Below are positions 19,942-36,041 of a DNA stretch of 36,064 nt, one piece after another. The translations under genes and the position numbers were made by a program. Where the stretch lies: positions 1 through 36,064 of the forward strand of contig NZ_QNFZ01000279.1 in assembly GCF_003313395.1 (NCBI RefSeq). Direction: 5' to 3'. A model generated the notes under the pieces. That model was not told where the DNA came from. It searched no databases and saw nothing but the letters and a program-made list of their open reading frames with translations. Numbering within the stretch: the stretch's first letter is position 1; every line of letters begins with the position of its first letter. Origin of the DNA: Nonomuraea lactucae (GTDB lineage Bacteria > Actinomycetota > Actinomycetes > Streptosporangiales > Streptosporangiaceae).

Positions 19942-19970
19942 TTGACATCCGCATGCCCCACCCGCACTCT
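19942..19970 (+). promoter_or_regulatory. Promoter of the Rieske/formaldehyde operon
   Basis: TTGACA (19942-19947), 17-nt spacer, CACTCT (19965-19970). Transcription would begin within the adjoining operator. The arrangement TTGAC(A/T), 21-22 nt, CTGTT is also seen before purU and the aldehyde dehydrogenase gene. Confidence 0.55.
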
Positions 19971-19971
19971 G

Positions 19972-19986
19972 TTGCGTATAGCGCTA
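19972..19986 (+). promoter_or_regulatory. Operator site 1, probable IclR target
   Basis: TTGCG-TATAG-CGCTA, directly after the -10 box of the Rieske ferredoxin operon. It is one of the recurrent 15-base pseudo-palindromes in this island, and its position suits repression of transcription start. Confidence 0.7.
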
Positions 19987-20012
19987 GACGTTGCTCTTTG
20001 TGAAACCGGGGT

Positions 20013-20369
20013 GTGACGATGATCCCAGCGTGCCCTCTCGCGTCGTTGCCGCGAGGCGAGGCCCTCCGTCTCGACGTCGATCCGCCCATCGCCGTCTTCC
20101 ACACCGACGACGGCGACATCTTCGCGATCGACGACACCTGCACCCACCAGGACGCCTCGCTGGCGGACGGCTGGCTGGAGGGCTGCGAGATCGAGTGCCC
20201 CCTGCACGCCTCCCGGTTCGACCTGCGCACCGGCCAGGTTGACGCGCCTCCCGCCAAGCGGCCGGTCCGCACCCACCGGGTCGTGGTCGAGGACGGCGTC
20301 ATCTGCGTCGTGCCGTCCGACGCCCCGCCCAACCTGCCTCCGGGCGTCACCCTGAAGGGGCAGGCGTGA
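20013..20369 (+). CDS. Rieske [2Fe-2S] ferredoxin
   Basis: A small soluble Rieske protein of 118 residues. The cluster ligands are plain: CTHQDASL gives Cys and His, and CPLHASRFD the second Cys-x2-His pair. It lacks a catalytic domain, so it is an electron shuttle between the FAD reductase encoded next and the Rieske oxygenase later in the operon. The start is GTG at 20013 or ATG two codons later; neither has a good Shine-Dalgarno, GGGG being the best candidate. It is first in an apparent six-gene operon and overlaps the reductase gene by GTGA. Confidence 0.93.
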   Translation: MTMIPACPLASLPRGEALRLDVDPPIAVFHTDDGDIFAIDDTCTHQDASLADGWLEGCEIECPLHASRFDLRTGQVDAPPAKRPVRTHRVVVEDGVICVVPSDAPPNLPPGVTLKGQA

Positions 20370-21538
20370 AGACGGTCTGCGTGGTCGGCGCCTCGCTGGC
20401 CGGCCTGCTCACGGCGCGGGCCCTGCGCGGCCAGGGGTACGCGGGACGGCTCGTCGTCATCGGCGAGGAGACGCACCGGCCCTACGACCGGCCGCCGCTG
20501 TCCAAGGACTACCTCAAGGGCGTGATCGGCGAGGCCGACCTGGCGCTGGAGGGCGACGGCGAGGACCCGGCCATCGAGTGGCGCCTGGGCGTGGCCGCCA
20601 CCGGCCTGGACGCGGCCGCCCGCCGGATCACGCTCAGCGACGGCACCTCCATCGCGGCCGACGGCATCGTGATCGCCACCGGGGCCGCCGCGCGCAGGCT
20701 GCCGGGCACGGAGGGGCTGCGCGGCGTCCACACGCTGCGCACGCTGGACGACGCCCGCGCCCTCCGCGGCGACCTGGAGACCGCCGGGCGGCTCGTCGTG
20801 ATCGGCGGCGGCTTCATCGGCGCCGAGGTCGCCGCCACGGCCCGCGAGCTCGGCCTCGACGTCACGCTCGTGGAGTCGGGGGAGGCGCCGCTCGCCGGCG
20901 TCGTCGGCCTCACGATGGCCCACGCCCTCGCCGAGCTGCACGAGAAGCGCGGCGTCCGGCTGATCCGCGGCGCGTACGTCACCGAGGTAACCGGCACCGG
21001 CCGGGCCGACGGCGTACGGCTCGCGGACGGCACCCACCTGCCCGCCGACGTCGTGGTCGTCGGCATCGGCGCGACGCCCAGCACCGGCTGGCTGGAGGGC
21101 AGCGGCGTCGAGCTGGGCGACGGGGTCGTCTGCGACGAGGGCGGCGGCACGTCCGTGCCCGGGATCGTGGCCGTCGGCGACTGCGCGGCGTGGTTCGATC
21201 CCGCGCTGGGCCGCCACCACAGGATCGAGCACTGGACCGGCGCCCGCCAGCGGGCCACGGTCGCGGCGGCCACGCTGCTGTCCGGCGGCACCGCCCGCCC
21301 CGAGCCCGCCCGGCCGGCCTACTTCTGGTCCGACCAGTTCGACGTGAAGATCCAGTTCATCGGGCACGCCCGCGACGCCGACACGGTCACCGTGGAGGAG
21401 GGCGACCCCGCGCACAACAGCTTCCTCGCCGTCTACCGGCAAGGAGACCGGCCCGTGGCGGTGCTGGGCGTCAACCAGGTCCGGCTGTTCACCCGCTGGC
21501 GCCGCCATCTGGAGACCGCGCCCGCCCAGACCGGCTGA
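20366..21538 (+). CDS. FAD-dependent ferredoxin reductase (BphA4 type)
   Basis: A 390-residue pyridine nucleotide-disulfide-type oxidoreductase. VVGASLAGLLTARALR is the FAD Rossmann motif, RPPLSKDYLKG and VIATGAAARRLPG are family blocks, RLVVIGGGFIGAEVAATA is the NAD(P)H-binding motif, and VPGIVAVGDCAAW is the second FAD site. EHWTGARQRATVAAATLLSG and FWSDQFD near the C-terminus are typical of reductases of Rieske oxygenase systems. It should pass electrons from NAD(P)H to the Rieske ferredoxin. The start is GTG overlapping the ferredoxin stop as GTGA. Confidence 0.92.
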   Translation: MKTVCVVGASLAGLLTARALRGQGYAGRLVVIGEETHRPYDRPPLSKDYLKGVIGEADLALEGDGEDPAIEWRLGVAATGLDAAARRITLSDGTSIAADGIVIATGAAARRLPGTEGLRGVHTLRTLDDARALRGDLETAGRLVVIGGGFIGAEVAATARELGLDVTLVESGEAPLAGVVGLTMAHALAELHEKRGVRLIRGAYVTEVTGTGRADGVRLADGTHLPADVVVVGIGATPSTGWLEGSGVELGDGVVCDEGGGTSVPGIVAVGDCAAWFDPALGRHHRIEHWTGARQRATVAAATLLSGGTARPEPARPAYFWSDQFDVKIQFIGHARDADTVTVEEGDPAHNSFLAVYRQGDRPVAVLGVNQVRLFTRWRRHLETAPAQTG

Positions 21539-21586
21539 AGACCCGGGCTGAAAAGGCCGAAGCAGCCTGAAAACAGGAGTGAATCA

Positions 21587-22672
21587 ATGGCTCATGAAGT
21601 ACGCGGCGTGGTCGCGACGGGCAAGGGCAAGCCGGTCAGCCTCGAGACGATCCTGGTCCCGGACCCGGGTCCCGGCGAGGCGCTCGTGAAGGTGCAGGCG
21701 TGCGGTGTCTGCCACACCGACCTGCACTACCGCGAGGGCGGCATCAACGACGACTTCCCGTTCCTGCTCGGCCACGAGGCCGCCGGAGTGGTCGAGGCGG
21801 TCGGACCCGACGTCACGGACGTCGCCCCCGGCGACTTCGTGATCCTCAACTGGCGCGCGGTCTGCGGGTCGTGCCGCTCCTGCCTGCGGGGCCGCCCGCA
21901 GTACTGCTTCGCCACCCACAACGCCACCCAGAAGATGACGCTCACCGACGGCACGCCGCTCAGCCCCGCGCTCGGCATCGGCGCGTTCGCCGACAAGACG
22001 CTGGTCGCCGCCGGGCAGTGCACCAAGGTGGACCCGGCCGCCTCCCCGGCCGCCGCCGGGCTGCTGGGCTGCGGCGTGATGGCCGGACTCGGCGCGGCCG
22101 TGAACACCGGCGCGGTCAGCCGCGGCGACTCGGTCGCGGTCATCGGCTGCGGCGGCGTAGGCAACGCCGCCATCGCCGGGGCCAACCTGGTCGGCGCGAC
22201 CACGATCATCGCCGTGGACGTGGACGACCGGAAGCTGGAGTGGGCGCGCGGCTTCGGCGCCACGCACACCGTGAACGCCGGGCAGGCCGACCCCGTCGAC
22301 GCGGTCAGGGAGCTCACCGGCGGCAACGGCGCGGACGTGGTGATCGACGCCGTGGGCCGGCCGGAGACGTTCAGGCAGGCGTTCTACGCCCGCGACCTGG
22401 CCGGCACCGCCGTGCTCGTGGGCGTGCCCACCCCCGAGATGACGCTGGAGCTGCCGCTGCTCGACGTCTTCGGCCGGGGCGGCGCGCTGAAGTCCAGCTG
22501 GTACGGCGACTGCCTGCCGAGCCGCGACTTCCCCATGCTCGTCTCGCTCTACCTTCGGGGCCGGTTCGACCTGAACGCGTTCGTCACCGAGACCGTCGGA
22601 CTGGACGGTGTCGAGGACGCCTTCGCCAAGATGCACCGCGGCGAGGTGCTCCGTTCCGTGGTGGTGCTGTGA
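21587..22672 (+). CDS. mscR: S-(hydroxymethyl)mycothiol dehydrogenase (MscR)
   Basis: Zinc-dependent medium-chain alcohol dehydrogenase of 361 residues, strongly like Mycobacterium tuberculosis AdhE2/MscR (Rv2259). Catalytic zinc ligands are C42 (in CGVCHTD) and H63 (GHEAAG). The structural zinc cysteines are C93, C96, C99 and C107. The NAD fold shows [11 protein letters not shown] at about 180. Conserved blocks [36 protein letters not shown] (quoted in part) and [15 protein letters not shown] distinguish MscR from ordinary alcohol dehydrogenases. It oxidises the formaldehyde-mycothiol adduct to S-formylmycothiol with NAD+. In this operon the formaldehyde would come from the Rieske demethylase. 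The stop overlaps the next start as TGATG. An AGGAG lies 6 nt before the start. Confidence 0.93.
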
Positions 22673-23295
22673 TGCGCGTCGAGCGCCTGGTCACCTCGGG
22701 CACGTTCAGCCTGGACGGCGGGACGTGGGAGGTGGACAACAACGTCTGGCTGCTGGGCGACGACGACCAGGTCCTGGTCGTCGACGCGGCCCACGACGCC
22801 GACGCGATCGCGACGGCCGTGGGCGACCGCCGGGTCGTCGGGATCGCGTGCACGCACGCGCACGACGACCACGTGAACGCCGCGCCCGAGCTGGCCGCGC
22901 GCACGGGCGGTCCCGTGCTGCTGCACCCCGACGACGAGGTGCTGTGGAAGCTGGCGCACCGGTCGGCGGCCCCGGACCGCTCGCTGGCGAACGGGCAGAT
23001 CATCCGGGTCGGCGACTCGGCCGTGCACGTGCTGCACACCCCCGGGCACGCTCCCGGCGCGGTCTGCCTGTACGTGCCGGAGCTGGACGCGCTGTTCTCC
23101 GGAGACACGCTCTTCCAGGGCGGCCCGGGCGCCACGGGCAGGTCGTACAGCGATTTCCCCACCATCATCGCGTCGATCAGCCGGACCCTGCTCACGCTGC
23201 CCGCCGAGACCGTGGTGCACACGGGGCACGGCGACGACACCAGCATCGGAGCCGAGGCTCCGCATCTCGAGGACTGGATCCGCCGCGGCCACTGA
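22672..23295 (+). CDS. Metallo-beta-lactamase-fold hydrolase, partner of MscR
   Basis: A 207-residue MBL-fold protein of glyoxalase II type. Metal ligands: THAHDDH (H62, H64, D66, H67), H126 in HTPGHAPG, D145 in SGDTLF, H186 in HTGHG, the full binuclear set. It follows mscR with a TGATG overlap. The same adjacency is known from mycobacteria (Rv2259-Rv2260). By analogy with glyoxalase II acting on S-acylglutathione, a likely role is hydrolysis of S-formylmycothiol to formate and mycothiol; that is inference. The protein is cytosolic, with no signal peptide. There is no other S-formyl-thiol hydrolase in the operon. Confidence 0.88.
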   Translation: MRVERLVTSGTFSLDGGTWEVDNNVWLLGDDDQVLVVDAAHDADAIATAVGDRRVVGIACTHAHDDHVNAAPELAARTGGPVLLHPDDEVLWKLAHRSAAPDRSLANGQIIRVGDSAVHVLHTPGHAPGAVCLYVPELDALFSGDTLFQGGPGATGRSYSDFPTIIASISRTLLTLPAETVVHTGHGDDTSIGAEAPHLEDWIRRGH

Positions 23296-23337
23296 ACCCG
23301 GCCCTTCCACCCAGGCGTTACACAGAGGAGAAGTCCC

Positions 23338-24453
23338 GTGACCACCGCAACCACCTCCAGCGTGATTCCCACCCTGCCGGGCCGCTACTACACCGATCCG
23401 GAGCTCTTCGCGCTGGAGCAGAAGAACATCTTCGAGGCGATGTGGTTCTGCGCGGTTCGCTCGTCCGACCTGCCCAAGCCGGGCTCGTTCAAGACCGTGC
23501 AGGTCGGCGCCGAGAGCATCCTCATCACCCGGGCGCGCAACGGATCGGTGCGCGCGTTCTTCAACGTCTGCCGCCACCGCGGCGCGACCCTGTGCACGGA
23601 GGAGTCGGGCGAGGCCAAGCGGGCCTTCCAGTGCCCTTACCACGCCTGGACGTACGACTTCGACGGCAAGCTGATCGCGGCGCCCAACCTCACCAAGATG
23701 GCCGACCTGGACCGGGTGCGGTACGGCCTGGTCAAGGCGCACGCGCGGGAGTGGCTCGGCTACGTGTGGGTCTGCCTGGCCGACGAGCCGCCGTCGTTCG
23801 AGCAGGACGTGCAGGGCGCGGTGGCCGAGCGGCTGGGTGCGGTGGAGCTGATCGACAACTACGACATGGCCAACCTGTCGGTCGGGCGGCGGATCGTCTA
23901 CGACGTCAAGGCCAACTGGAAGCTCATCGTCGAGAACTTCATGGAGTGCTACCACTGCGCCACGATCCACCCCGAGCTGACCGAGGTGCTGCCGGAGTTC
24001 GCCGACGGGTACGCCGCGCAGTATTTCGTCGGCCACGGCGCGGAGTTCGGCGAGGAGGTGCAGGGCTTCACCGTCGACGGCTCGGCCGGGCTCGACCGCA
24101 TCCCGGGTGTCAGCGAGGACCAGGACCGGCGCTACTACGCCATCACCGTCAAGCCGCAGGTCTTCATCAACCTCGTGCCCGACCACGTTATCCTGCACCG
24201 CATGTTCCCTCTCGCCGTAGACCGCACGGTGGTCGAGTGTGACTGGCTCTACCTGCCCGACGTGGTGGCCGGCGGCAAGGATCTGGACAAGTCGGTGGAG
24301 CTGTTCCACCGGGTCAACGAGCAGGACTTCGACGCCTGCGAGCGCTGCCAGCCGGCGATGAGCTCGCGGACGTACCGCGACGGCGGGGTGCTGGTGCCGA
24401 GCGAGCACCACATCGGCGCCTTCCACGAGTGGGTTCAGGAGCGGATCGGGTAA
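23338..24453 (+). CDS. Rieske oxygenase, probable glycine betaine demethylase (GbcA-like)
   Basis: Oxygenase component of 371 residues. The Rieske domain has CRHRG (C78, H80) and CPYHAWTYD (C99, H102). The catalytic domain has the mononuclear iron motif ENFMECYHCATIHPEL with H206 and H211, the bridging acid E203, and a likely third ligand Asp in NEQDFD. The NWKxxxENFxECYHC pattern is shared with GbcA (glycine betaine) and Stc2 (stachydrine) N-demethylases more than with aromatic dioxygenases. Oxidative demethylation yields formaldehyde, which matches the mycothiol enzymes just upstream. Glycine betaine is the preferred substrate because choline oxidation and quaternary-amine uptake genes lie in the same regulon. 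Stachydrine or carnitine remain possible. An AGAGGAGAAG ribosome-binding site precedes the GTG start. Confidence 0.85.
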   Translation: MTTATTSSVIPTLPGRYYTDPELFALEQKNIFEAMWFCAVRSSDLPKPGSFKTVQVGAESILITRARNGSVRAFFNVCRHRGATLCTEESGEAKRAFQCPYHAWTYDFDGKLIAAPNLTKMADLDRVRYGLVKAHAREWLGYVWVCLADEPPSFEQDVQGAVAERLGAVELIDNYDMANLSVGRRIVYDVKANWKLIVENFMECYHCATIHPELTEVLPEFADGYAAQYFVGHGAEFGEEVQGFTVDGSAGLDRIPGVSEDQDRRYYAITVKPQVFINLVPDHVILHRMFPLAVDRTVVECDWLYLPDVVAGGKDLDKSVELFHRVNEQDFDACERCQPAMSSRTYRDGGVLVPSEHHIGAFHEWVQERIG

Positions 24454-24455
24454 CG

Positions 24456-26741
24456 GTGAGCAACCAGGGCGAAGAGGACGAGGACGCGCGCCTGCGGGTC
24501 CGCCCGCCCAAGGACTGGGCGGGCGGGCTGCCCGCGGTGGGGCACGCGATGGAGATGGCCCATCGCCAGATGGGCGCCGCCCGCGGCGTGCGCGCGCTGC
24601 TGCGGGTCAACCAGAAGGACGGCTTCGACTGCCCCGGCTGCGCCTGGCCGGAGGGCGATCATCGCAGCCCGGCCGAGTTCTGCGAGAACGGCGCGAAGGC
24701 CGTGGCCGAGGAGGCCACCACGCGCCGGGTCACGCGCGAGTTCTTCGCCGCGCACCCGGTGGGGGATCTGGCCGTCCGCAGCGACCACTGGCTCGGCGGC
24801 CAGGGCCGGCTGACCGAGCCGATGCACAAGCCAGCGGGCGCCGACCACTACGTGCCGGTCACCTGGGCCAAGGCGTTCGAGATCATCGCCAGGGAGCTGC
24901 GCGCCCTCGGCGGCCCCGACGAGGCCGTCTTCTACACCTCCGGCCGCACCTCCAACGAGGCGGCCTTCGCCTACCAGCTGCTGGTGCGCCGGCTGGGCAC
25001 CAACAACCTGCCCGACTGCTCCAACATGTGCCACGAGTCCAGCGGCTCGGCGCTGACCGAGACGCTCGGCATCGGCAAGGGCACGGTCTCGCTGGACGAC
25101 CTGCACCGCGCCGAGCTGATCTTCGTGGTGGGCCAGAACCCCGGCACCAACCACCCCCGCATGCTGACCGCCCTGGAGCGGGCCAAGCGCGGCGGGGCGC
25201 GGATCATCGCCGTCAACCCGCTGCCCGAGGCCGGCCTGCTGCGTTTCAAGAACCCGCAGCGCCCCTCCGGGCTCGGCCGCGGCACCGCGCTCGCCGACCG
25301 GTTCCTGCAGATCCGGCTCAACGGGGACCTGGCGCTGTTCCAGGCGCTGTCCTCGCTGCTGCTCGACGGCGCCGGCGACGCCGGGCTCCCCGCCGCCGAC
25401 CGGGCGTTCATCGAGGAGCACACGCACGGGTTCGAGGCGTGGGAGAGGCACATCCGCGCCCTGGACTGGGAGAAGGTCCTCGCCGCGACCGGCCTGACCC
25501 GGGCCGAGGTGGAGGAGACCGCGGCCGAGGTCCGCGCGGCGGGCTCGGTCGTCGTCTGCTGGGCCATGGGCCTGACCCAGCACCGCAACTCCGTGGCGAC
25601 GATCCGCGAGGTGGTCAACTTCCTGCTGCTGCGCGGCAACGTGGGCCGTCCGGGCGCTGGGGTGTGCCCGGTGCGCGGCCACTCCAACGTGCAGGGCGAC
25701 CGGACCATGGGCATCTACGAGAAGCCCTCGGCCGCCTTCCTCGACGCGCTGGGCGCGGAGTTCGGCTTCGCGCCGCCGCGCCGTCACGGGCTCGACACGG
25801 TCGACGCGATCCGCGCCATGCGCGACGGCCAGGTGAAGGTCTTCTTCGGCATGGGCGGCAACTTCGTCCGGGCGACCCCCGACAGCGAGGTGACGGAGGC
25901 GGCGCTGCGCCGCACCCGGCTGACCGTGCAGGTGTCCACCAAGCTCAACCGGTCCCACGCGGTGTGCGGCGCGGAGGCGCTCATCCTGCCGACGCTGGGC
26001 CGCACGGAGCGCGACCCGGGCGGCTACGTGACCGTCGAGGACTCGATGGGTCTCGTGCACGCCTCCCGGGGCAGGCTCGGGCCGGCCTCGCCCCACCTGC
26101 TGCCGGAGGTGGCGATCGTCTGCCGGCTGGCGCGCGAGGTGCTCGGTGACGACCCGCACGTGCCGTGGGCGGAGTTCGAGCGCGACTACGGCGCCGTCAG
26201 GGATCGCATCGCGCGCGTCGTCCCCGGGTTCGAGGACTTCAACGCGCGGGCGCCCGCGGGCTTCGCGCTGCCCAACGCGCCGAGGGACGAGCGGCGCTTC
26301 CCGACCGCCACGGGCCGGGCCAACTTCACCGTCAACGAGCTGGAGGTGCTGCGCGTCCCGCTGGGGCGGCTGCTGCTGCAGACGGTACGCAGCCACGACC
26401 AGTACAACACCACGGTCTACGGGCTCGACGACCGCTACCGCGGGGTCAAGGCGGGCCGCAGGGTGGTGTTCGTGCACCCGGACGACCTGGCCGAGCGGGA
26501 CCTGGCCGACGGCGACGTGGTGGACCTGGTCAGCGAGTGGCCCGACGGCGAGCGCGTGGCGGCGGGGTTCAGGGTGATCGCCTACCCCACGGCCCGCGGC
26601 TGCTGCGCGGCCTACTTCCCCGAGACGAACGTGCTGGTGCCGCTCGACTCGGTGGCCGAGACGTCCAACACCCCGACCTCGAAGAGCGTGGTGGTGCGCC
26701 TGGTCAGTACGACTTCCCCGCGTACCCCAGCCGCCGGCTGA
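24456..26741 (+). CDS. FdhF/YdeP family molybdopterin oxidoreductase
   Basis: A 761-residue molybdoenzyme alpha subunit of the FdhF/YdeP class. The N-terminal Fe-S site is CPGCAWPEGDHRSPAEFC (C59, C62, C76). SNMCHESSG at about 189-197 carries Cys192 at the position of the Mo-ligating Cys or Sec of formate dehydrogenases. VVGQNPGTNHPRML, VNFLLLRGNVGRPGAGVCPVRGH (in part), GGNFVRATPD and QLxxRSHDQYN-type blocks bind the two pterins. No electron-transfer subunit is nearby. YdeP-type enzymes are poorly understood. In this operon, after formaldehyde oxidation to formate, formate oxidation to CO2 is the natural proposal. The GTG start lies 3 nt after the oxygenase stop with AGGAG somewhat distant. 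The 3' end overlaps the convergent iclR gene by 38 bp. Confidence 0.88.
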   Translation: MSNQGEEDEDARLRVRPPKDWAGGLPAVGHAMEMAHRQMGAARGVRALLRVNQKDGFDCPGCAWPEGDHRSPAEFCENGAKAVAEEATTRRVTREFFAAHPVGDLAVRSDHWLGGQGRLTEPMHKPAGADHYVPVTWAKAFEIIARELRALGGPDEAVFYTSGRTSNEAAFAYQLLVRRLGTNNLPDCSNMCHESSGSALTETLGIGKGTVSLDDLHRAELIFVVGQNPGTNHPRMLTALERAKRGGARIIAVNPLPEAGLLRFKNPQRPSGLGRGTALADRFLQIRLNGDLALFQALSSLLLDGAGDAGLPAADRAFIEEHTHGFEAWERHIRALDWEKVLAATGLTRAEVEETAAEVRAAGSVVVCWAMGLTQHRNSVATIREVVNFLLLRGNVGRPGAGVCPVRGHSNVQGDRTMGIYEKPSAAFLDALGAEFGFAPPRRHGLDTVDAIRAMRDGQVKVFFGMGGNFVRATPDSEVTEAALRRTRLTVQVSTKLNRSHAVCGAEALILPTLGRTERDPGGYVTVEDSMGLVHASRGRLGPASPHLLPEVAIVCRLAREVLGDDPHVPWAEFERDYGAVRDRIARVVPGFEDFNARAPAGFALPNAPRDERRFPTATGRANFTVNELEVLRVPLGRLLLQTVRSHDQYNTTVYGLDDRYRGVKAGRRVVFVHPDDLAERDLADGDVVDLVSEWPDGERVAAGFRVIAYPTARGCCAAYFPETNVLVPLDSVAETSNTPTSKSVVVRLVSTTSPRTPAAG

Positions 26742-27483
26742 TCTCGTCCGCGCCCTCGATGAGGCGGGGGGCCAGCTCGTGGATGCGCTCGGCGCTGAAG
26801 CGGTAGGCGGGCCCGGACGCGCTGACCGCGGCGACGACCTCACCGAGGTAGGAGCGGATGGGCGCGGCCACGGCGTTCAGCCCCTCCTCCAGCTCCTCCA
26901 GGCAGAAGGCGTAGCCGGTCTCGCGGGTCTCGGCGAGCTGCAGCTGCAGAGCGTCGGCGTCGACGATCGTCTTGGGGGTGAAGCTCTCCAGACCACCCGC
27001 GAGCAGCCGGGCGCGCTCCCGCTCGTCGAGGTAGGCGATCAGGGCCTTGCCGCTGGAGGTGGCGTGCAGCGGGGTGATCTGCCCGACCCAGTTGTACGCG
27101 GTGACGGCCGAGGGGCCGCGTACCTGGTCGAGGTTGACCGCGTGGGCGGAGCGGAGCACGGCGACGTTGACCGTCTCGCCGATCTCCTCGGCCAGCCGCT
27201 GGCAGACCGGGCGGGCGCGGCCGATGATGTCCATCTGCGTGCTGACGCCGCCGGCCAGCCGGATGATGCCGAAGCCGAGGCGATACTTGCCGCGGTCCTC
27301 GGCCTGTTCCACCAGGCCGCGCGCCTCCAGCGCGCCGAGCAACCGGAAGGCCGTCGACTTGTGCACGTCGATCTCCGCCGCCACCTCGCTGACGCCGGCC
27401 TCGCCGCGCTGCGACAGGATCTCCAGCACGCTGATCGCCCTGTCGACGGACTGCACGCCCCCGCTGCCCGATTCGTTGCTCAT
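26704..27483 (-). CDS. IclR family regulator
   Basis: A 259-residue IclR protein. The N-terminal winged HTH is at about residues 10-70 (SVDRAISVLEILSQRGEAG, then VSEVAAEIDVHKSTAFRLLGAL in part), followed by the effector domain with HATSSGKALIAYL, ETGYAFCLEELEEGLNAVAAPI (in part) and VVAAVSASGPAYRF. Its genomic place, between the Rieske operon it meets tail to tail and the divergent choline dehydrogenase gene, makes it the obvious regulator of the island. The recurrent TTGCG-N5-CGC sites are its likely targets. The effector could be choline, betaine or a demethylation product. The ATG start has no clear Shine-Dalgarno. Confidence 0.93.
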   Translation of the reverse strand: MSNESGSGGVQSVDRAISVLEILSQRGEAGVSEVAAEIDVHKSTAFRLLGALEARGLVEQAEDRGKYRLGFGIIRLAGGVSTQMDIIGRARPVCQRLAEEIGETVNVAVLRSAHAVNLDQVRGPSAVTAYNWVGQITPLHATSSGKALIAYLDERERARLLAGGLESFTPKTIVDADALQLQLAETRETGYAFCLEELEEGLNAVAAPIRSYLGEVVAAVSASGPAYRFSAERIHELAPRLIEGADEISRRLGYAGKSY

Positions 27484-27561
27484 AGCGAAACTCTAAGTGC
27501 TCCAGGCAACCTAGTGCGAATGAAGGATTAAAAGATCTCCTGTTGCGAGTAGTGAAACGCA

Positions 27562-27610: not shown

Positions 27611-29248
27611 ATGACGTCACAGCAATACGACTTCGTCATCGTCGGAGGAGGCTCGGCGGGCTGCGCCCTGGCCAACCGGCTCTCCGCGGACCCCGACACG
27701 CGCGTGCTGGTCCTGGAGGCCGGCCGTCCCGACTATCCGTGGGACGTGTTCATCCACATGCCCGCGGCGCTGCCCTTCCCCATCGGCAATCGTTTCTACG
27801 ACTGGCGCTACGAGTCCGAGCCTGAGCCGCACATGAACGGCAGGCGCGTCTACCACGCCCGGGGCAAGGTGCTCGGCGGCTCCAGCAGCATCAACGGCAT
27901 GATCTTCCAGCGCGGCAACCCGCTCGACTACGAGCGCTGGGGCGCCGACCCGGGCATGAAGAACTGGGACTACGCGCACTGCCTGCCGTACTTCAAGCGG
28001 ATGGAAAACTGCCTGGCAGACCCGGGCACGCCGTTCCGCGGCCATGACGGGCCCCTGTCGCTGGAGCGCGGCGCCGCGAGCACCCCTCTCTTCGCGGCCT
28101 TCTTCGAGGCCGTCCAGCAGGCCGGCTACCCGCTGACCGACGACGTCAACGGCTACCGCCAGGAGGGCTTCGCCCGCTTCGACCGCAACATCCGGCGGGG
28201 CCGCCGGCTCAGCGCCGCCCGCGCCTACCTGCACCCGGTGATGAAGCGCCCCAACCTCACGGTCAGGACGCGGGCGTTCGTCTCCAGGGTGCTCTTCGAG
28301 GGCACGCGGGCGGTCGGCGTGGAGTACGACGGCGGGACCGTGCGCGCCAAGGAGGTCATCCTGAGCGGCGGCGCCATCAACTCGCCCCAGCTCCTCCAGC
28401 TCTCCGGCGTCGGCAACGCCCGCGAGCTGGGCGCGCTCGGCGTCGACGTGGTGCACGACCTGCCCGGCGTCGGCGAGCACCTCCAGGACCACCTGGAGGT
28501 CTACATCCAGCACGGCTGCCGTCAGCCCGTCTCCATGCAGCCCAACCTGCAGAAGTGGCGACACCCGTGGATCGGCGCGCAGTGGCTGTTCCTGCGCGGC
28601 GGCCCCGGGGCGACCAACCACTTCGAGGCCGGCGGGTTCGTGCGGAGCAACGACGACGTGGACTACCCCAACCTGATGTTCCACTTCCTGCCCATCGCCG
28701 TGCGCTACGACGGCTCGGCCCCCGCGGGCGGGCACGGCTACCAGGTGCACGTGGGGCCGATGTACTCGGACGCCCGCGGCTCGGTGAAGATCAAGAGCAC
28801 CGATCCGCGGCAGCACCCCGCCCTGCGCTTCAACTACCTGTCCACCGAGCAGGACCGGCGCGAGTGGGTGGAGGCCATCAGGGTGAGCCGCGACATCCTC
28901 GGCCAGCCGGCCCTGGCCGAGTTCAGCACCGGTGAGCTGTCGCCGGGCCCGTCCGTCGGGACCGACGAGGAGATCCTCGACTGGGTCGCCAGGGACGCGG
29001 AGACGGCCCTGCATCCTTCCTGCACGGCCCGGATGGGCGTCGACGAGATGTCGGTCGTGGACCCGGAGACCATGCGCGTGCACGGCGTCGACGGGCTGCG
29101 CGTGGTGGACGCCTCGGCCATGCCGTACGTCACCAACGGCAACATCTACGCGCCGGTCATGATGCTGGCGGAGAAGGCGGCCGACCTGATTCTCGGCAAC
29201 ACGCCGCTCGCGCCCGAGACGACCGAGTTCTACCGGCACCGGAAATGA
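27611..29248 (+). CDS. betA: Choline dehydrogenase (GMC oxidoreductase)
   Basis: A 545-residue FAD enzyme of the glucose-methanol-choline family. It has the dinucleotide motif [17 protein letters not shown] at the N-terminus, GMC signature 1 in [18 protein letters not shown], signature 2 in [18 protein letters not shown], and the catalytic His in [10 protein letters not shown], a block typical of BetA. The C-terminal [20 protein letters not shown] carries the active-site Asn. It would oxidise choline to betaine aldehyde, passing electrons to the respiratory chain. The start is ATG at 27611 with GACGAGG upstream; an earlier GTG (27584) and ATG (27596) lack this support. It is monocistronic, ending at a bidirectional hairpin. 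Related GMC alcohol dehydrogenases are the main alternative, but the neighbouring aldehyde dehydrogenase supports choline. Confidence 0.9.
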
Positions 29249-29324: not shown

Positions 29325-30188
29325 CTATCGGAAGACGACCGTCCGGTCGCCGTTGAGCAGCACGCGCTGCTCGCTGTGCCACTTCACGGCCCGCGCCAGC
29401 ACCTGCGCCTCGACGTCGCGGCCCGCGGTGATCAGATCCTCGGGGTCGAGCTCGTGGTCCACCCTGACCACGTCCTGCTCGATGATCGGCCCCTCGTCCA
29501 GGTCGGCCGTCACGTAGTGCGCGGTCGCGCCGATCAGCTTCACCCCGCGCTCGTGGGCCTGGTGGTAGGGCTTGGCGCCCTTGAAGCCAGGCAGGAACGA
29601 GTGGTGGATGTTGATGGCACGCCCTTCGAGCCGCTTGCACATGTCGTCCGACAGGACCTGCATGTAGCGGGCGAGCACCACCAGGTCCGCCTCGTACTCG
29701 GCGACCAGCTCCAGCACCTTCGCCTCGGCCTCGGCCTTGGTCTGCGGGGTGACCGGCACATAGTGGTACGGCACGCCGTACGAGGCGGCGAGCGGCTCCA
29801 GGTCGGGGTGGTTGGAGACGATCGCGGGGATCTCGATGTTCAGCACGCCGCCCTGCCTGCGGAAGAGCAGGTCGTTCAGGCAGTGGCCGAACTTCGACAC
29901 CATGATGAGCGACCTGGTCGGAGTCGCGGCGTCCTTGAGCTGCCAGGTCATCTGGAAGGAGTCGGCGACGTAGGTGAAGCCCGCGCGCAGTTCCTCCAGC
30001 CCGTGCTGGGCCGCGAAGTGCACGCGCATGAAGAAGCCGCCGCCTCTGCGGTCGTTGAACTGCTTGCTCTGCAGCATGTTGCCGCCGTGCTGCACCAGGA
30101 AGCTGGTCACGGCGTAGACGATGCCGGGCTTGTCCGAGCAGGAGACCGTGAGGATGAACTCGCGTCCAGGGTCGGGCCGGGGAGACAT
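29325..30188 (-). CDS. purU: Formyltetrahydrofolate deformylase
   Basis: A 287-residue PurU. An N-terminal ACT domain (about 10-85: ILTVSCSDKPGIVYAVTSFL in part, NDRRGGGFFMR) precedes the formyltransferase-like hydrolase domain with LIMVSKFGHCLNDLL, IVSNHPDLEPLA, VVLARYMQVLSDDM, INIHHSFLPGFKGA (catalytic His) and GATAHYVTADLDEGPIIEQD (catalytic Asp). It hydrolyses 10-formyltetrahydrofolate to formate and tetrahydrofolate. In choline and betaine users this recycles folate loaded by methyl-group oxidation. The start is ATG with AGGAGG 6 nt upstream. Two island-type operator sites lie just upstream, so it belongs to the same regulon. Confidence 0.95.
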   Translation of the reverse strand: MSPRPDPGREFILTVSCSDKPGIVYAVTSFLVQHGGNMLQSKQFNDRRGGGFFMRVHFAAQHGLEELRAGFTYVADSFQMTWQLKDAATPTRSLIMVSKFGHCLNDLLFRRQGGVLNIEIPAIVSNHPDLEPLAASYGVPYHYVPVTPQTKAEAEAKVLELVAEYEADLVVLARYMQVLSDDMCKRLEGRAINIHHSFLPGFKGAKPYHQAHERGVKLIGATAHYVTADLDEGPIIEQDVVRVDHELDPEDLITAGRDVEAQVLARAVKWHSEQRVLLNGDRTVVFR

Positions 30189-30202
30189 CACACCTCCTAG
30201 CG

Positions 30203-30236: not shown

Positions 30237-30237
30237 C

Positions 30238-30331: not shown

Positions 30332-30360
30332 TTGACTTATCCAAGGGGGCAGGTCAATCC
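30332..30360 (+). promoter_or_regulatory. Promoter of the aldehyde dehydrogenase-transporter operon
   Basis: TTGACT (30332-30337), then 22 nt, CTGTT (30360-30364). The -10 is weak (CAATCC or AATCCT). The TTGAC-22-CTGTT spacing equals that of purU and is within one base of the Rieske operon promoter. Confidence 0.45.
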
Positions 30361-30381
30361 TGTTCCTCACTAAGCATTGCC

Positions 30382-30396
30382 TTGCGCGATACGCAA
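30382..30396 (+). promoter_or_regulatory. Operator site 4, upstream of the aldehyde dehydrogenase gene
   Basis: TTGCG-CGATA-CGCAA, the most symmetric copy, with perfect 5-base arms. Read on the minus strand the centre is TATCG, matching TAT of the other sites. It lies 17 nt before the start codon. Confidence 0.7.
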
Positions 30397-30413
30397 CGAT
30401 CAGAGGTGTGCCG

Positions 30414-31886
30414 ATGACCGATCTCTATATCGGCGGCACGTGGATCAAGCCAGCCGAGGGTGGGCAGCGGAGCATCGTCTCGCCCGCCGACGGCAGCCTC
30501 GTTACCACGGTCGCAGAAGCCTGCGCGACCGACACCGTGGCCGCGATCCGGGCGGCCAGGCAGGCGTTCGACCACGGATCCTGGCCCGCCACCCCGGCGC
30601 GCGTGCGCGGCGCCCTCCTGCACAGGGTAGCCGACATCCTGGAGCGCGATCGCGACGCCTTCGCGCGGGCCGAGTCGGGCGACACCGGCAAGCGGCTCGT
30701 GGAGAGCGAGTACGACATCGACGACTGCGCCGCGTGCCTGCGCTACTTCGCCGGTGTCGCGGGCACCGACGCGGGACGCGTGGTGGACACCGGCCGTGAC
30801 GACGCGATCAGCCGGATCGTCTATGAGCCGGTCGGCGTCTGCGGCCTCATCACGCCGTGGAACTACCCGCTGCTGCAGGCGACGTGGAAGGTGGCGCCCG
30901 CGCTGGCCGCCGGCAACACCTTCGTGCTCAAGCCCAGCGAGCTCACCCCCAGCACCGCGATCCTGCTGATGCGCGCGCTGGAGGAGGCCGGCCTGCCCGC
31001 GGGCGTGGCCAACCTGGTCCTGGGCGCCGGGGCGAGCGCCGGCGCGCCGCTCGCCGAACACCCCGACGTCGACCTGGTGTCGTTCACCGGCGGCGTGGAG
31101 ACCGGTCGGCGGATCATGGCCACGGCGTCCGCCACGGTCAAGCGCGTGGCGCTGGAGCTCGGCGGCAAGAACCCCAACGTCGTCTTCGCCGACGCCGACT
31201 TCGAGACGGCCGTGGACTTCGCGCTCACGGCCGTGTTCCTGCACTCCGGCCAGGTCTGCTCGGCCGGAGCCCGGCTGCTGGTGGAGGACTCGCTGCACGA
31301 CGCGTTCGTGGACGAGGTCGTACGGCGGGCCGAGCTGATCCGGCTCGGCGGCCCCTTCGACCCGGAGGCGCACACCGGCCCGCTCATCTCCGCCGCGCAC
31401 CTGGCCAAGGTCGAGGAGTACGTGGCGGCGGGCCTCGCCGAGGGCGCGGTGCTGCGCTGCGGCGGCCACCGCCCGGAGGGAGACGGCCTGGACGGCGGCT
31501 TCTTCTACCGCCCGACCGTGCTCGACGAGTGCAAGCAGGGCATGCGGGTGGTGCGCGAGGAGTCGTTCGGCCCGGTGCTCACCGTGGAGCGCTTCAGCGG
31601 CGAGGACGAGGCCGTCCGCCTGGCCAACGACACCGAGTACGGCCTGGCCGGCGCGGTCTGGACCCAGGACGCCGGAAAGGCGCAGCGGGTGGCGGGCCGG
31701 CTGCGTCACGGGACAGTATGGATCAACGACTACCACCCTTACGTGCCGCAGGCCGAATGGGGCGGTTTCAAGCAGTCAGGCAACGGCCGGGAGCTCGGAC
31801 CGACCGGCCTGGACGAATATCGCGAGATCAAGCATGTGTGGCAGAACACCCGCCCGCGCCCCCAGCGGTGGTTCCCAGCGAACTGA
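30414..31886 (+). CDS. betB: Betaine aldehyde dehydrogenase
   Basis: NAD(P)+-dependent aldehyde dehydrogenase of 490 residues. VGVCGLITPWNYPLLQATWK carries the Asn-linked oxyanion region, ALELGGKNPN the general base E248, and FLHSGQVCSAG the nucleophile C282. The C-terminal HPYVPQAEWGGFKQSG and YREIKHVW are the form seen in betaine aldehyde dehydrogenases (GbsA/BetB). It converts betaine aldehyde to glycine betaine after the choline dehydrogenase. The ATG is preceded by AGAGG 7 nt upstream; a GTG two codons earlier is less well placed. It begins a four-gene operon with the ABC transporter, 24 nt before the ATPase gene. A Cys next to the nucleophile or a potassium site cannot be judged here. 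Confidence 0.92.
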   Translation: MTDLYIGGTWIKPAEGGQRSIVSPADGSLVTTVAEACATDTVAAIRAARQAFDHGSWPATPARVRGALLHRVADILERDRDAFARAESGDTGKRLVESEYDIDDCAACLRYFAGVAGTDAGRVVDTGRDDAISRIVYEPVGVCGLITPWNYPLLQATWKVAPALAAGNTFVLKPSELTPSTAILLMRALEEAGLPAGVANLVLGAGASAGAPLAEHPDVDLVSFTGGVETGRRIMATASATVKRVALELGGKNPNVVFADADFETAVDFALTAVFLHSGQVCSAGARLLVEDSLHDAFVDEVVRRAELIRLGGPFDPEAHTGPLISAAHLAKVEEYVAAGLAEGAVLRCGGHRPEGDGLDGGFFYRPTVLDECKQGMRVVREESFGPVLTVERFSGEDEAVRLANDTEYGLAGAVWTQDAGKAQRVAGRLRHGTVWINDYHPYVPQAEWGGFKQSGNGRELGPTGLDEYREIKHVWQNTRPRPQRWFPAN

Positions 31887-31910
31887 CGCTCCGACGACCA
31901 AGAGGTCCTC

Positions 31911-32972
31911 ATGACTGTGCCGTCAGTGGCCGAACGTAGTGCAACCGACACCGACTCCCCGCCCGTCCTCGCCGTGCGCGGCCTGTGGAAGGTGTTCGGT
32001 CCCAAGGCCCAGAGCGTCGTCGGGAGCACGCTCACGCGCAAGGAGCTCAAGGAGCAGACGGGCTGCGTGGCCGCCGTCCGCGACGTCTCCTTCGACGTGC
32101 GCCGGGGCGAGGTGTTCGTCGTCATGGGCCTGTCCGGCTCGGGCAAGTCCACCCTGGTCCGCTGCCTGACCCGGCTGATCGAGCCCACGGCCGGCGAGGT
32201 CCTGCTGGACGGCGAGGACGTCCGCAAGGCCGACGACCGCAGGCTGCGCGAGCTGCGCAGGCACCGCATGGCCATGGTCTTCCAGCACTTCGGCCTGCTG
32301 CCGCACCGGTGCGTGCTCGACAACGTCGCGTTCGGGCTGGAGATCCGCGGGGTCTCCAAGCAGCAGCGCTACGCCAGGGCCCGCGAGGTGGTCGGGCTGG
32401 TCGGCCTCAACGGGTTCGAGAACTCCTACCCCGACCAGCTCTCCGGCGGCATGCAGCAGCGCGTCGGCCTGGCCAGGGCGCTCGCGGCCGACCCCGAGGT
32501 GCTGCTGTTCGACGAGCCGTTCTCCGCGCTGGACCCCCTGATCCGGCGCGAGATGCAGAACGAGGTCATCCGCCTGCACCACGAGGTCGGCAAGACGATG
32601 ATCTTCATCACGCACGACCTCAGCGAGGCGCTCAAGCTGGGCGACCGGATCCTCATCATGCGCGACGGCGAGCTCGTCCAGGTGGGCACGCCCGACCAGG
32701 TGGTGGGCGCGCCGGCCGACGACTACGTGCGGGACTTCGTCAGCGACATCCCGCGCTCGCACGTGCTGACGCTCCGCTGGATCATGCGCCCGCCCCAGCC
32801 GGGCGAGGCGCTCGACGGTCCGGCGCTCGGCCCCGACGTGGTCATCCGCGACGCCGTGCACGCCGTGCTCTCCGCCGACCGGCCGGTCCGGGTGATGGAC
32901 GGCGAGAGCCTGCTCGGCGTGGTCACCAGCGCGGAGATTCTCGAAGTGATCGCCGGAGGGCAGCACCAATGA
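31911..32972 (+). CDS. Glycine betaine/choline ABC transporter ATPase (ProV/OpuAA-like)
   Basis: A 353-residue ABC ATPase. Walker [10 protein letters not shown] at 73-81, Q-loop [11 protein letters not shown], signature [15 protein letters not shown], Walker [15 protein letters not shown], and switch His in ITHDLSEA. The N-terminal extension with a [17 protein letters not shown] helix and a short C-terminal CBS-like segment ([19 protein letters not shown]) are marks of the ProV/OpuA quaternary-amine importers. In those the CBS pair senses ionic strength. Here only about one CBS repeat remains, which points to a catabolic rather than osmotic uptake system. The stop overlaps the permease start as ATGA. 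Confidence 0.92.
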
Positions 32973-34969
32973 CAGCGGTCAACGTGGTCGCCTCGCGGGT
33001 CGCCGCCCGGCTGCCCGCCCGCAAGTACCTGCTCGTCGTGGTGATCGCGCTCTGGGTGGCGGGCTGGGCGCTGCTGCGCGGCCGTGACACCCTCCAGCTC
33101 GGCGGCGCCGAGCTGACCCCGCTCCACGTCTCCCTCAGCGAGGGCATGGACGCCGTCGACGACAGCCGCAACAGCAACCCGTTCTTCCTGTACTTCATCA
33201 ACTACATCCGGCTCTTCCTCGACGAGGCGGTGACGTTCGTCCAGGCGCTGATCAGCCAGCCGTCGTTCGGACGGCCGGTGCCCGTGCTCGGCTGGCTGGG
33301 CGTGGTGGGCGTGGCGACAGCCGTCGCCTTCCTGTACGGCAACCGGAAGGTCGCGCTGCTGACCGCCGCCGGGTTCCTCTCCTTCGGCGTGCTCGGCCTG
33401 TGGCAGGAGAGCATGGACACGCTGGCGCTGACGCTGACCGCCGTGGCGCTGTCGCTGGCCGTGGGCATCCCGCTCGGGGTGTGGGCCGGGCTGAGCGACC
33501 GCTTCCACCGGGTGGTCACCCCGGTGCTCGACTTCATGCAGACCATGCCGACGTTCGTCTACCTGGCGCCGCTCACGCTGTTCTTCCTCATCGGCCCGGC
33601 CAGCGCGACGGTCGCCACGATGATCTACGCGATCCCGCCCGCGATCCGGATCACCGCGCACGGCATCCGGCAGGTCTCGCACGAGACGCTGGAGGCGAGC
33701 ACCTCGCTCGGCGTCACCTCCGCGCAGGCGCTGCGCCACGTGCGGCTGCCGATGGCCAAGCAGACCATCATCGTCGGGGTGAACCAGACCATCATGGCCG
33801 CCCTGTCCATGGCCACCATCGCGGCGCTCATCGACGCCCCCGGCCTCGGCAAGACGGTCCTGAAGGCGCTGCAGACGCTCGACGTGGGCACCGCGTTCAA
33901 CGCCGGCCTGGCCATCGTCATCATGGCCGTCGTGCTCGACCGGGTGACCTCCGCGGCCAGCCGCCGCGTGGAGGCCGAGCGCCGGGCCGGCCGGCAGCGC
34001 ACCGTACTGGGACGCCGCCTGGAGGTCGCGGGCGTGCTCGGGGGCGTCGCCGTGCTCGGCTACCTGTCGTACACCTACGTGTGGGCCGCGGAGTTCCCCA
34101 TCGAGGCCAACCTCGGCTCGTACGTGCGCCGCGCCGCCGACGCCGCCAGCCTGTGGGTGCAGGACAGCCTGGTCACCTACACCGACGCGCTGAAGAACCT
34201 GCTCACCAACGGGCTGCTCAACCCGTTCGAGACGCTGCTGACCGACTCCCCGTGGTGGCTGGTCGCCGCCGCGGCCGTGGCCATCGCGCTGCTGGTGGGC
34301 AGCGTGCGGGCCGCGCTGGTCACCACGGCCGGGCTGCTCGTGCTGGTGCTGCTCGGGCTCTGGCAGGACAGCATGGTCACGCTGGCCTCCACGCTCGTCG
34401 CGACGATCCTCGTCATGGTGCTCGGCGTGATCATCGGGGTCTGGATGGGGCGCAGCGACCGGGCCGACACCGTGCTGCGGCCCCTGCTGGACGCCGGTCA
34501 GACCATGCCGGCGTTCGTCTACCTCGTGCCCATCCTCGGCCTCTTCGGGCCGACCCGGTTCACCGCGATCATCGCGGCCGTGGTGTTCGCCGCGCCGATC
34601 GCGATCAAGCTGGTCGCCGAGGGCATCAGGAGAGTCTCGGCCACCACCGTCGAGGCCGCCACCTCGGCCGGGGCGAACTCGTGGCAGCTCATCTCCAAGG
34701 TGCAGCTGCCGATGGCGCGCAGCGCTGTAACGCTGGCGGCGAGCCAAGGATTGATCTATGTGCTCTCCATGGTCGTCGTCGGGGGTCTGGTCGGCGCGGG
34801 AGCGCTCGGCTACGACGTCGTGGCCGGATTCTCGCAACACCAGTTGCGGGGCAAGGGGCTGGCCGCCGGGCTCGCGATCGTCGTGCTCGGTATAGTGCTC
34901 GACCGCGTCATGCGGGCCGCCACCGAGCGGGCCGACGCCGCGGCGCACGGGGGACTCCATGGCAGATGA
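32969..34969 (+). CDS. Double-domain quaternary-amine ABC permease (ProW-like)
   Basis: A 666-residue permease with two full BPD-type membrane domains in one chain. The first EAA loop reads [20 protein letters not shown] and the second [20 protein letters not shown]. Each is preceded by the matching [16 protein letters not shown] and [16 protein letters not shown] segments, so the halves are an internal duplication. Ordinary ProW has one such domain and works as a homodimer; here one chain would suffice. A periplasmic-type segment of about 60 residues precedes each half (for example [17 protein letters not shown] and [17 protein letters not shown]). It works with the ATPase encoded upstream and the lipoprotein encoded downstream. 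Confidence 0.92.
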
Positions 34970-35009
34970 ACCAGACCGGCCGGTGGCCGGAGAGATACAG
35001 GAGGACCAG

Positions 35010-35990
35010 GTGGCAGTAACCAGGAGTGGAAGGGTCCGGGCGGTCGTGCTCGTGACCGGCGCCGGTCTCCTGCTCACCGCGTGCGGAGGCGCGAAGGTCG
35101 GCGGCGCCGAGCCCGCCGCGAGCGGCGGTGGCAAGGCGGCCTGCGGCACCGTCAACCTCGCGATCAACCCGTGGGTGGGTTACGAGGCCAACGCGGCGGT
35201 GATCGCCCATGTGGCCGAGAAGCAACTCGGCTGCAAGGTGGTCAAGAAGGACCTCAAGGAGGAGGTGGCCTGGCAGGGCTTCGCCACGGGCGAGGTCGAC
35301 GCCGTCGTGGAGAACTGGGCGCACGACGACCTCAAGAAGAAGTACATCGAGGACCAGAAGGTCGCCGTGTCCGCCGGGACGACCGGCAACAAGGGCGTCA
35401 TCGGCTGGTACGTCGCCCCGTGGATGGCCAAGAAGTACCCGGACATCACCGACTGGAAGAACCTCAACAAGTACGCCTCGCTGTTCAAGACCTCCGAGTC
35501 CGGCGGCAAGGGCCAGCTCCTCGACGGCGACCCGTCGTTCGTCACCAACGACGCCGCGCTGGTGAAGAACCTCAAGCTCGACTACAAGGTCGTGTACGCG
35601 GGCAGCGAGACGGCGCTCATCACCGCCTTCCGCCAGTCGGAGAAGCAGCAGAAGCCGCTCATCGGCTACTTCTACGAGCCGCAGTGGTTCCTGTCGGAGC
35701 TGAAGCTGGTCAAGGTCAACCTGCCCGCCTACACCGCCGGCTGTGACGCCGACGCGGCCAAGGTGGCGTGCGACTACCCGCCGTACGAGCTCGACAAGAT
35801 CGTGAGCAAGAAGTTCGCCGACTCCGGCAGCCCGGCGTACACGCTGGTCAAGAACTTCACGTGGACCAACGACGACCAGAACCTCGTCGCCAAGTACATC
35901 TCCGAGGACAAGATGTCGGCCGATGAGGCCGCCGCCAAGTGGGTGGCCGACAACCCCGACAAGGTGAAGGCCTGGCTGCCCAGCAGCTGA
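35010..35990 (+). CDS. Quaternary-amine-binding lipoprotein (ProX/OpuAC-like)
   Basis: A 326-residue substrate-binding lipoprotein. Short basic N-terminus, hydrophobic core and lipobox LLTAC place the lipidated Cys at residue 25, before a Gly/Ala/Ser-rich linker. The binding fold shows aromatic residues expected for a cation-pi cage: W55 and Y58 in NPWVGYE, W103 in VENWAHDD, W133 and W138 in GWYVAPW. It should bind choline, glycine betaine or a similar trimethylammonium compound. The GTG start at 35010 is preferred because AGGAGG lies 5 nt upstream and the signal peptide then has normal length; an in-frame ATG at 34959 would overlap the permease gene and add 17 acidic residues. It is last in the operon. 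Confidence 0.92.
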   Translation: MAVTRSGRVRAVVLVTGAGLLLTACGGAKVGGAEPAASGGGKAACGTVNLAINPWVGYEANAAVIAHVAEKQLGCKVVKKDLKEEVAWQGFATGEVDAVVENWAHDDLKKKYIEDQKVAVSAGTTGNKGVIGWYVAPWMAKKYPDITDWKNLNKYASLFKTSESGGKGQLLDGDPSFVTNDAALVKNLKLDYKVVYAGSETALITAFRQSEKQQKPLIGYFYEPQWFLSELKLVKVNLPAYTAGCDADAAKVACDYPPYELDKIVSKKFADSGSPAYTLVKNFTWTNDDQNLVAKYISEDKMSADEAAAKWVADNPDKVKAWLPSS

Positions 35991-35998
35991 ATCCCGCC

Positions 35999-36041
35999 CG
36001 CGCCCGGCCCGGTCGATCCTGTCTCGACCGGGCCGGGCGCG
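35999..36041 (+). terminator. Terminator of the transporter operon
   Basis: A perfect 18-bp GC stem (36001-36016 shows CGCCCGGCCCGGTCGA) with a 7-base loop, 8 nt after the lipoprotein stop. A short TTCTT follows. Nothing else is seen in the last 23 bases of the window. Confidence 0.7.

Follow-up and report, generated by a model that had tools for sequence, protein, structure and literature searches.

A probable choline-to-pyruvate catabolic cluster in Nonomuraea lactucae, with a distinct clade of Rieske oxygenase and a conserved operator, the putative target of an IclR-type regulator

The window analyzed here is a 36,064-nucleotide stretch of the Nonomuraea lactucae genome (contig NZ_QNFZ01000279.1, positions 1 to 36,064), and our subject is a thirteen-gene cluster at 20019-35990, resolved by GC-frame gene calling and family searches with gene starts set by eye. 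A sequence-only reading of this DNA had seen genes for uptake, choline and betaine aldehyde oxidation, a Rieske oxygenase, MscR, a metallo-beta-lactamase-fold (MBL) hydrolase, an FdhF/YdeP enzyme and PurU lying together. All of these are present between 20013 and 35990, and to them we add three cluster members that it left unnamed: a ferredoxin, a ferredoxin reductase and an IclR-family regulator. As argued below, the cluster probably serves the catabolism of choline and glycine betaine under one IclR-type regulator.

Families were assigned with curated NCBIfam cut-offs, given here in bits as score versus cut-off. Six genes on the + strand open the cluster: fdx (20019..20369), for a Rieske-type [2Fe-2S] ferredoxin (PF00355, 65 bits; PRK09965, 144 versus 113); fdr (20366..21538), for an HcaD/AndAa-like FAD ferredoxin reductase (PF07992, 199 bits; PF14759; NF042949 at 265, under its cut-off of 450); mscR (21587..22672), for S-(hydroxymethyl)mycothiol dehydrogenase (TIGR03451, 680 versus 513); mbl (22672..23295), which overlaps the mscR stop and encodes the MBL hydrolase (PF00753, 92 bits; HAHDDH at residue 62); the Rieske oxygenase gene (23338..24453; PF00848/PF00355); and fdhF/ydeP (24456..26741), for a molybdopterin oxidoreductase (TIGR01701, 901 versus 582). 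The regulator gene iclR follows on the - strand (26704..27483; PF01614/PF09339), then betA for choline dehydrogenase on the + strand (27611..29248, alternative start 27584; TIGR01810, 842 versus 732) and purU for formyltetrahydrofolate deformylase on the - strand (29325..30191; TIGR00655, 356 versus 286). The remaining genes are again on the + strand. The product of betB (30408..31886; PF00171, 559 bits) resembles betaine aldehyde dehydrogenase, whose model TIGR01804, though below its cut-off (611 versus 669), is the top scorer among the 25 models shown. A betaine/choline ABC transporter is encoded by proV for the ATPase (31911..32972; TIGR01186, 369 versus 327), proW for a duplicated, fused permease (32969..34969; TIGR03416, 388 versus 363, in two stretches) and proX for the substrate-binding protein (34959..35990), which has no NCBIfam match at 1e-15 and was placed through betaine-binding proteins of known structure (PDB 4xz6, a betaine/proline-binding protein, E 1e-18).

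The cluster continues past the end of its contig. The final 59 bases of the window (36006..36064, +) are identical to the end of a second host contig, C798 (5.7 kb; L093), which was reached twice in the host genome, by a motif search and by a search for the folate-binding GCV_T domain. On one strand of C798, behind the operator GTTGCGATATATGCAAC, lie genes for an 800-residue dimethylglycine oxidase (DMGO; L093:5558-3156), glyA (L093:3142-1886), soxB (L093:1886-656; TIGR01373, 632 versus 529), soxD (L093:647-369; TIGR01374, 134.5 versus 116.5) and, after soxD, the first part of soxA, with 80% identity over residues 4-113 of a Streptomyces SoxA. DMGO joins an FAD domain to a folate-binding GCV_T domain (266 bits) and matches end to end the solved N,N-dimethylglycine oxidase 1pj5 (956 bits, residues 3-800), which we take to be the Arthrobacter globiformis enzyme, a related entry being named in PMC3534580; its C-terminal half matches the SoxA model. 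DMGO is present in all eight genomes searched, those of the host and seven relatives. Nine distinct close relatives were selected for reading (L120-L126, L128 and L129, L127 being the same contig as L126). DMGO comes right after proX in 9/9, with soxBDAG following in 7/9, glyA in 6/9 and sdaA in 3/9 (one cut short by a contig end). The overlap predicts a spacing of ~196 bp from proX to DMGO in the host, which falls inside the range of roughly 160-240 bp in these relatives; in more distant loci the gene order differs. The sequence-only reading had taken the enzymes for dimethylglycine and sarcosine to be absent and perhaps located elsewhere. They only seemed absent because the contig stops short of them, and "elsewhere" has turned out to be C798, where the operator again stands in front. 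The idea that the pathway is truncated at dimethylglycine was rejected on the same evidence.

The operator-like motifs pointed out earlier are real. Resolved from words common to the intergenic regions, the operator is a 17-bp palindrome, GTTGC-N7-GCAAC, strong sites of which precede fdx, betA, purU and betB. Scored with a position weight matrix (PWM) derived from six host sites, three of the window's operator groups are tandem pairs with a 19-bp step: before fdx (19971-19987, strong, 21.4 bits; 19990-20006, weak, 14.2 bits), before betA (27542-27558, weak, 12.3 bits; 27561-27577, strong, 21.3 bits) and before purU (30202-30218, 21.1 bits; 30221-30237, 17.6 bits). The site before betB is at 30381..30397 (20.3 bits), and an operator-like site across the iclR start codon (27475..27491, 16.1 bits) suggests possible autoregulation of iclR. 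At a 9-bit threshold the window holds two further matches, at 34750 (9.3 bits, within proW) and at 4877 (15.2 bits, outside the cluster). The latter, the palindrome TTTGCCTATAAGGCAAA at 4877-4893, lies between two divergent open reading frames (ORFs) that were named by eye, one regulator-like (4293-4865, -) and one aldolase II-like (4969-5730, +), and is probably a separate operator. Across the host genome the motif search gave eight matches (two exact, six with one mismatch), against seven for a reversed-pattern control; four are in the window and one is on C798. Those on C772, C960 and C989 were discounted because the ORFs called around them looked unlike pathway genes by eye, a judgment made without a family search; on the C772 stretch no ORF was called.

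The operator was then scored on related loci, 80 in number, which are the best of at least 589 relatives from a scan of genome contigs; all of their titles name actinomycetes, and 57 are full length. On these, the PWM gave 459 matches of at least 11 bits, and 427 lie close to where a cluster gene starts; 20 permuted PWMs averaged 41 matches (range 12-136). Because the matrix derives from the host's own sites, the seven nearest loci (L013-L019) were excluded from a second set of statistics. In the other 73 loci, 293 of the 297 matches of at least 14 bits fall in upstream windows that make up 17.4% of the bases, and 72 of the 73 have one; 40 column-permuted PWMs gave a mean of 10.3 matches (largest 56). 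Operator pairs exactly 19 bp apart number 69 in these loci, against a mean of 0.4 (largest 16) for permuted PWMs. The regulon is thus well supported. We infer that the IclR protein, encoded in 71 of the 80 loci, is the natural ligand of the operator and would answer to an inducer; against the BhcR model NF045644 the regulator scores 204, under the cut-off of 350.

Other cluster genes also recur beside the Rieske gene. By identity thresholds that we set ourselves, fdr is found in 69 of the 80 loci, fdx in 58, mscR in 45, betA and betB in 44 each and proV in 39, with purU (37), mbl (31), dmgo (29), soxB (21), fdhF (18) and folD (12) rarer; we estimate the chance of meeting one single-copy gene at ~0.2% per 21-kb locus. 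Sixty-seven loci have betA, dmgo or sox, 57 have mscR, purU or fdhF, and 73 have either set. Clustering with the demethylation genes is kept in loci of several actinomycete families, and two Arthrobacter loci (L060, L086) and one Pseudarthrobacter locus (L076) hold the Rieske gene, fdx, fdr, betA, betB, proV and DMGO together. A comparison of gene neighborhoods across Streptosporangiales had been suggested as a check. In 200 genomes of the order, the Rieske enzyme (E<=1e-120) occurs in 90 and DMGO (E<=1e-250) in 100, with both in 83, Rieske only in 7, DMGO only in 17 and neither in 93 (Fisher p 6e-30, a guide only, related genomes not being independent). In 66 of the 83 genomes with both, the two lie within 25 kb. 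Among 396 Actinomycetota genomes, 10 have a close Rieske homologue.

Some further features of these relatives may be recorded here. Rieske homologues in genomes of the same genus fall into two identity groups, 87-94% and 69-74%. Streptomyces humidus and S. cyaneochromogenes (L044/L075 and L065/L070) each carry two close Rieske copies ~22 kb apart, one within a bet/pro cluster and the other near SoxA-like and glyA genes. Recurrent additional neighbors in L074, L028, L051 and L078, named by eye, are folD, sdaA, a BCCT transporter and a MetF-like gene.

These genes can be read as a single route. ProVWX would import choline and betaine, and BetA with BetB would convert choline to glycine betaine. 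Electrons would pass from NADH through the FAD reductase Fdr and the Rieske ferredoxin Fdx to the Rieske oxygenase, which is predicted to take one methyl off betaine as free formaldehyde and leave dimethylglycine. DMGO and a heterotetrameric sarcosine oxidase would move the remaining two methyls onto tetrahydrofolate to give glycine, which GlyA would turn into serine; a serine dehydratase gene stands next in some relatives, and would extend the route to pyruvate. At the promoters, the IclR protein would bind the 17-bp palindromes, often as two sites 19 bp apart. The proposal of one route from extracellular choline to dimethylglycine plus CO2 therefore holds as regards a co-regulated choline unit with a formaldehyde-to-CO2 arm, and gives way at its endpoint, the route going on to sarcosine, glycine and serine. 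ProVWX, BetA and BetB alone would suffice to make betaine as an osmolyte, and an osmoprotection cluster for choline uptake and betaine synthesis might adjoin a formaldehyde-detoxification operon by chance. We consider this very improbable, since the same operators stand before fdx, betA, purU, betB and dmgO and the clustering with demethylation genes is conserved in several actinomycete families.

For the one-carbon units we propose two arms. The earlier view of one co-regulated catabolic unit in which MscR, MBL and FdhF would carry formaldehyde to CO2 is supported, and the host genome holds the mycothiol synthesis gene mshC (559 versus 485) and a gene for FdhD. Free formaldehyde would combine with mycothiol and be oxidized by MscR to S-formylmycothiol, which the MBL protein, likely a thioester hydrolase acting on S-formylmycothiol, would cleave to formate. 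The suggestion that formaldehyde stays on mycothiol throughout is not supported. PurU acts on 10-formyl-tetrahydrofolate, and SoxA has an aminomethyltransferase-like domain. Because DMGO has a folate-binding GCV_T domain and SoxA its aminomethyltransferase-like one, folate is the expected carrier of methyls two and three, and mycothiol should take only the methyl released by the Rieske enzyme; mycothiol as carrier of all three was accordingly rejected. A folate route for two methyls would also explain the presence of purU in the cluster, with PurU releasing formate from surplus 10-formyl-folate.

Both arms would converge on formate, which FdhF would oxidize to CO2. FdhF/YdeP matches formate dehydrogenases of known structure, and motif and alignment to YjgC (which has Gln for His) place Cys192-His193 and Arg407 at the catalytic positions of those enzymes, (Sec/Cys)-His and Arg. 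These residues and the FdhD gene argue for a cytosolic formate dehydrogenase. Its score against the formate dehydrogenase alpha model TIGR01591 is 253, under the cut-off of 666, its family includes YdeP, named only as a putative acid-resistance oxidoreductase, and fdhF occurs in only 18 of the 80 loci. It may thus be that FdhF/YdeP is some other oxidoreductase and that the arm stops at formate, to be excreted or oxidized by another enzyme, an outcome that we regard as unlikely, if by no means negligible.

In the part of PMC7948474 available to us, Rieske oxygenases of quaternary ammonium compounds (group V) are described as having a bridging Glu that precedes the Cys-Tyr-His at the iron site. 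The residue at the CntA-203 position is Tyr or Phe in group Va, the oxygenases of carnitine, choline and benzalkonium, and Asn in group Vb, with GbcA and Stc2. The enzyme here belongs to group V by its bridging Glu, E203, which is invariant in 28/28 aligned sequences and 80/80 loci, where HcaE and BenA have Asp. At the CntA-203 position it has Phe201, within ENFMECYHC in 80/80 loci, and so carries the group Va residue, one that is not specific, since the alignment shows Phe there too in HcaE, which acts on aromatic rings and has the bridging Asp. The nearest solved structures are Stc2 (3vca, 4qup) and 3n0q, then CntA (6y8j). A 17-row tree makes the clade sister to Escherichia coli YeaW (support 99/98, long branches), and in a 33-row tree the actinomycete group takes in YeaW and a Leisingera protein, on very long branches. 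Against a profile of the clade, a Rhodococcus plasmid homologue and a Paracoccus homologue score 209 each, GbcA 207, Stc2 192, YeaW 172, HcaE 109 and BenA 95. The profile scores and trees thus leave the nearest characterized enzyme unsettled by sequence alone. An aromatic-ring substrate was rejected on the bridging Glu in place of Asp, on the cluster context and on the profile, where HcaE and BenA are the lowest of eleven references.

Gene context speaks for N-demethylation, with C-N cleavage as the chief rival. An enzyme of the CntA/choline-monooxygenase kind might split betaine into trimethylamine and glyoxylate, or oxidize carnitine, choline or another trimethylammonium compound; Phe201, the union with YeaW in the 17-row tree on its long branches, and a paralogue outside the cluster (described below) are in keeping with such an activity. 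We hold it to be quite unlikely. That the Rieske gene clusters and co-occurs with those for DMGO, sarcosine oxidase, MscR and PurU fits formaldehyde and dimethylglycine as products rather than trimethylamine, and among the identified genes there is none for a trimethylamine or glyoxylate enzyme. In addition, the profile scores do not favor YeaW over GbcA or Stc2, and the Phe, being shared with HcaE, is not specific. We lean, by a modest degree, toward the view that actinomycetes use a betaine N-demethylase from a separate group V clade, in which an aromatic, CntA-type residue would bind the trimethylammonium head, with a ferredoxin and FAD reductase of its own, and which the conserved tandem IclR operator would wire to two arms, the first methyl going to mycothiol and the remaining ones to folate. 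This proposal and the C-N cleavage rival are both held a little less firmly because HcaE also carries Phe at that position.

Several observations weigh against betaine demethylation by this cluster. On the GbcA model NF058607, which scores a Halomonas homologue at 850 and Stc2 at 495, the Rieske enzyme reaches 230 bits against a cut-off of 670, and orthology to GbcA was rejected; Phe201 likewise stands where GbcA and Stc2 have the group Vb Asn. Seven of the 80 loci (L032, L063, L066, L067, L083, L085, L091) have neither the choline-demethylation nor the one-carbon set of neighbors, and L032 and L063 have, of all the genes sought, the Rieske gene only. At the thresholds used, 7 of the 90 Streptosporangiales genomes with the Rieske enzyme are without DMGO, and in the 83 with both, the two genes are on different contigs in 15 (the host included) and far apart on one contig in 2. 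A Rieske paralogue in Nonomuraea gerenzanensis (L099:18001-19098; 73% identity) is without cluster genes within 18 kb, and two of three neighboring ORFs there are without a Pfam match. DMGO exceeds no NCBIfam cut-off (its best is trimethylamine N-oxide demethylase, 211 versus 1100). The host assembly showed neither the remainder of soxA nor any part of soxG; soxA runs off its contig there and the SoxG model was silent, as it was on its controls.

GbcA itself was sought more widely. None of the 396 Actinomycetota genomes passes the GbcA cut-off, which leaves absence unproven, as the 14 control genomes also gave no positive and at most four candidates per genome were scored among the results seen. 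Eleven of the 396 (G214, G377, G504, G522 and seven more) have GbcA/Stc2-like Rieske proteins at 376-418 bits, below the cut-off, and G214 and G377 carry the actinomycete clade as well.

The rest of the window holds a few further genes. A full-length 56-kDa selenium-binding protein (7523-8914, -) matches SBP56 at 611 bits; the SBP56 family includes methanethiol oxidases, which also release formaldehyde. A 708-residue protein (14519-16645, -) has no Pfam match at 1e-5, and beside it lies a polysaccharide deacetylase fused to a family 2 glycosyltransferase (16661-19258, -). Immediately upstream of the cluster is a gene for a SCO4226-like nickel-responsive protein (19570-19818, +; 91 bits).

The chemistry of the route is already known, and its variant part is the Rieske enzyme, a distinct clade. 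The sequence-only reading knew of no well-described pathway in this arrangement, yet there are precedents. The portions of PMC12093977 at hand describe betaine, dimethylglycine and sarcosine catabolism genes clustered with purU, soxBDAG and glyA in Vibrio; in Vibrio penaeicida, betIBA and proVWX/choVWX lie immediately upstream of them. A pathway with GbcAB and DgcAB is known in Pseudomonas, Chromohalobacter and Vibrio, by the same portions and those of PMC12478193. As proposed here, those systems (gbcAB, dgcAB, soxBDAG, glyA, purU) run from choline through betaine, dimethylglycine, sarcosine and glycine to serine, with a Rieske first step and purU in the cluster. They differ in having GbcA, of another Rieske subfamily, with its GbcB reductase, and DgcAB instead of a single-chain DMGO; in P. 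aeruginosa, moreover, regulation is by the AraC-type GbdR, with SouR for sarcosine, instead of an IclR-type protein. These bacteria are not known to have mycothiol.

Closer to the host, an Arthrobacter glyA-soxBDAG-sdaA-purU cluster is described in the part of PMC3534580 available, which also reports growth of Arthrobacter Rue61a on choline and betaine and judges the betaine pathway in its genome incomplete. The enzymes of these Arthrobacter and Corynebacterium systems (SoxBDAG, GlyA, SdaA, PurU and dimethylglycine oxidase; Meskys 2001 and Suzuki 2005, as cited there) are the same as ours, again in actinomycetes. That part of the paper assigns no enzyme to the step from betaine to dimethylglycine, whereas here a Rieske, Fdx and Fdr set, the bet genes, MscR and a common operator are joined to those enzymes. 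Stc2 and CntA/YeaW resemble the Rieske enzyme here in belonging to group V, with the bridging Glu and quaternary ammonium substrates (in our case predicted); they are ~30% identical to it, and the actinomycete clade differs in its Phe at CntA-203 and in having distinct genes for a ferredoxin and an FAD reductase next to it. In Paracoccus growing on choline, by the section of PMC4776306 at hand, a glutathione-dependent formaldehyde dehydrogenase is controlled by FlhRS. Thiol-dependent formaldehyde oxidation is thus tied to growth on choline there, as we propose here, through glutathione and FlhRS rather than mycothiol and an IclR regulator. The open-licence literature that we searched yielded no description of an actinomycete Rieske demethylase of betaine.

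Soil and the surroundings of plant roots commonly contain choline and betaine. If our reading is right, it would supply the first step that is still unassigned when soil actinomycetes break down betaine, the Rieske enzyme being a candidate for the demethylation reported as incomplete in the Arthrobacter genome. The cluster offers a conserved candidate for this first demethylation together with its likely electron-transfer partners and a predicted regulator and operator, and it would give a reason for the use of two formaldehyde carriers, mycothiol and folate. Annotation by GbcA orthology may miss the trait altogether, as suggested by the 0/396 Actinomycetota genomes that pass the GbcA model and the 10/396 that have the Rieske clade found here.

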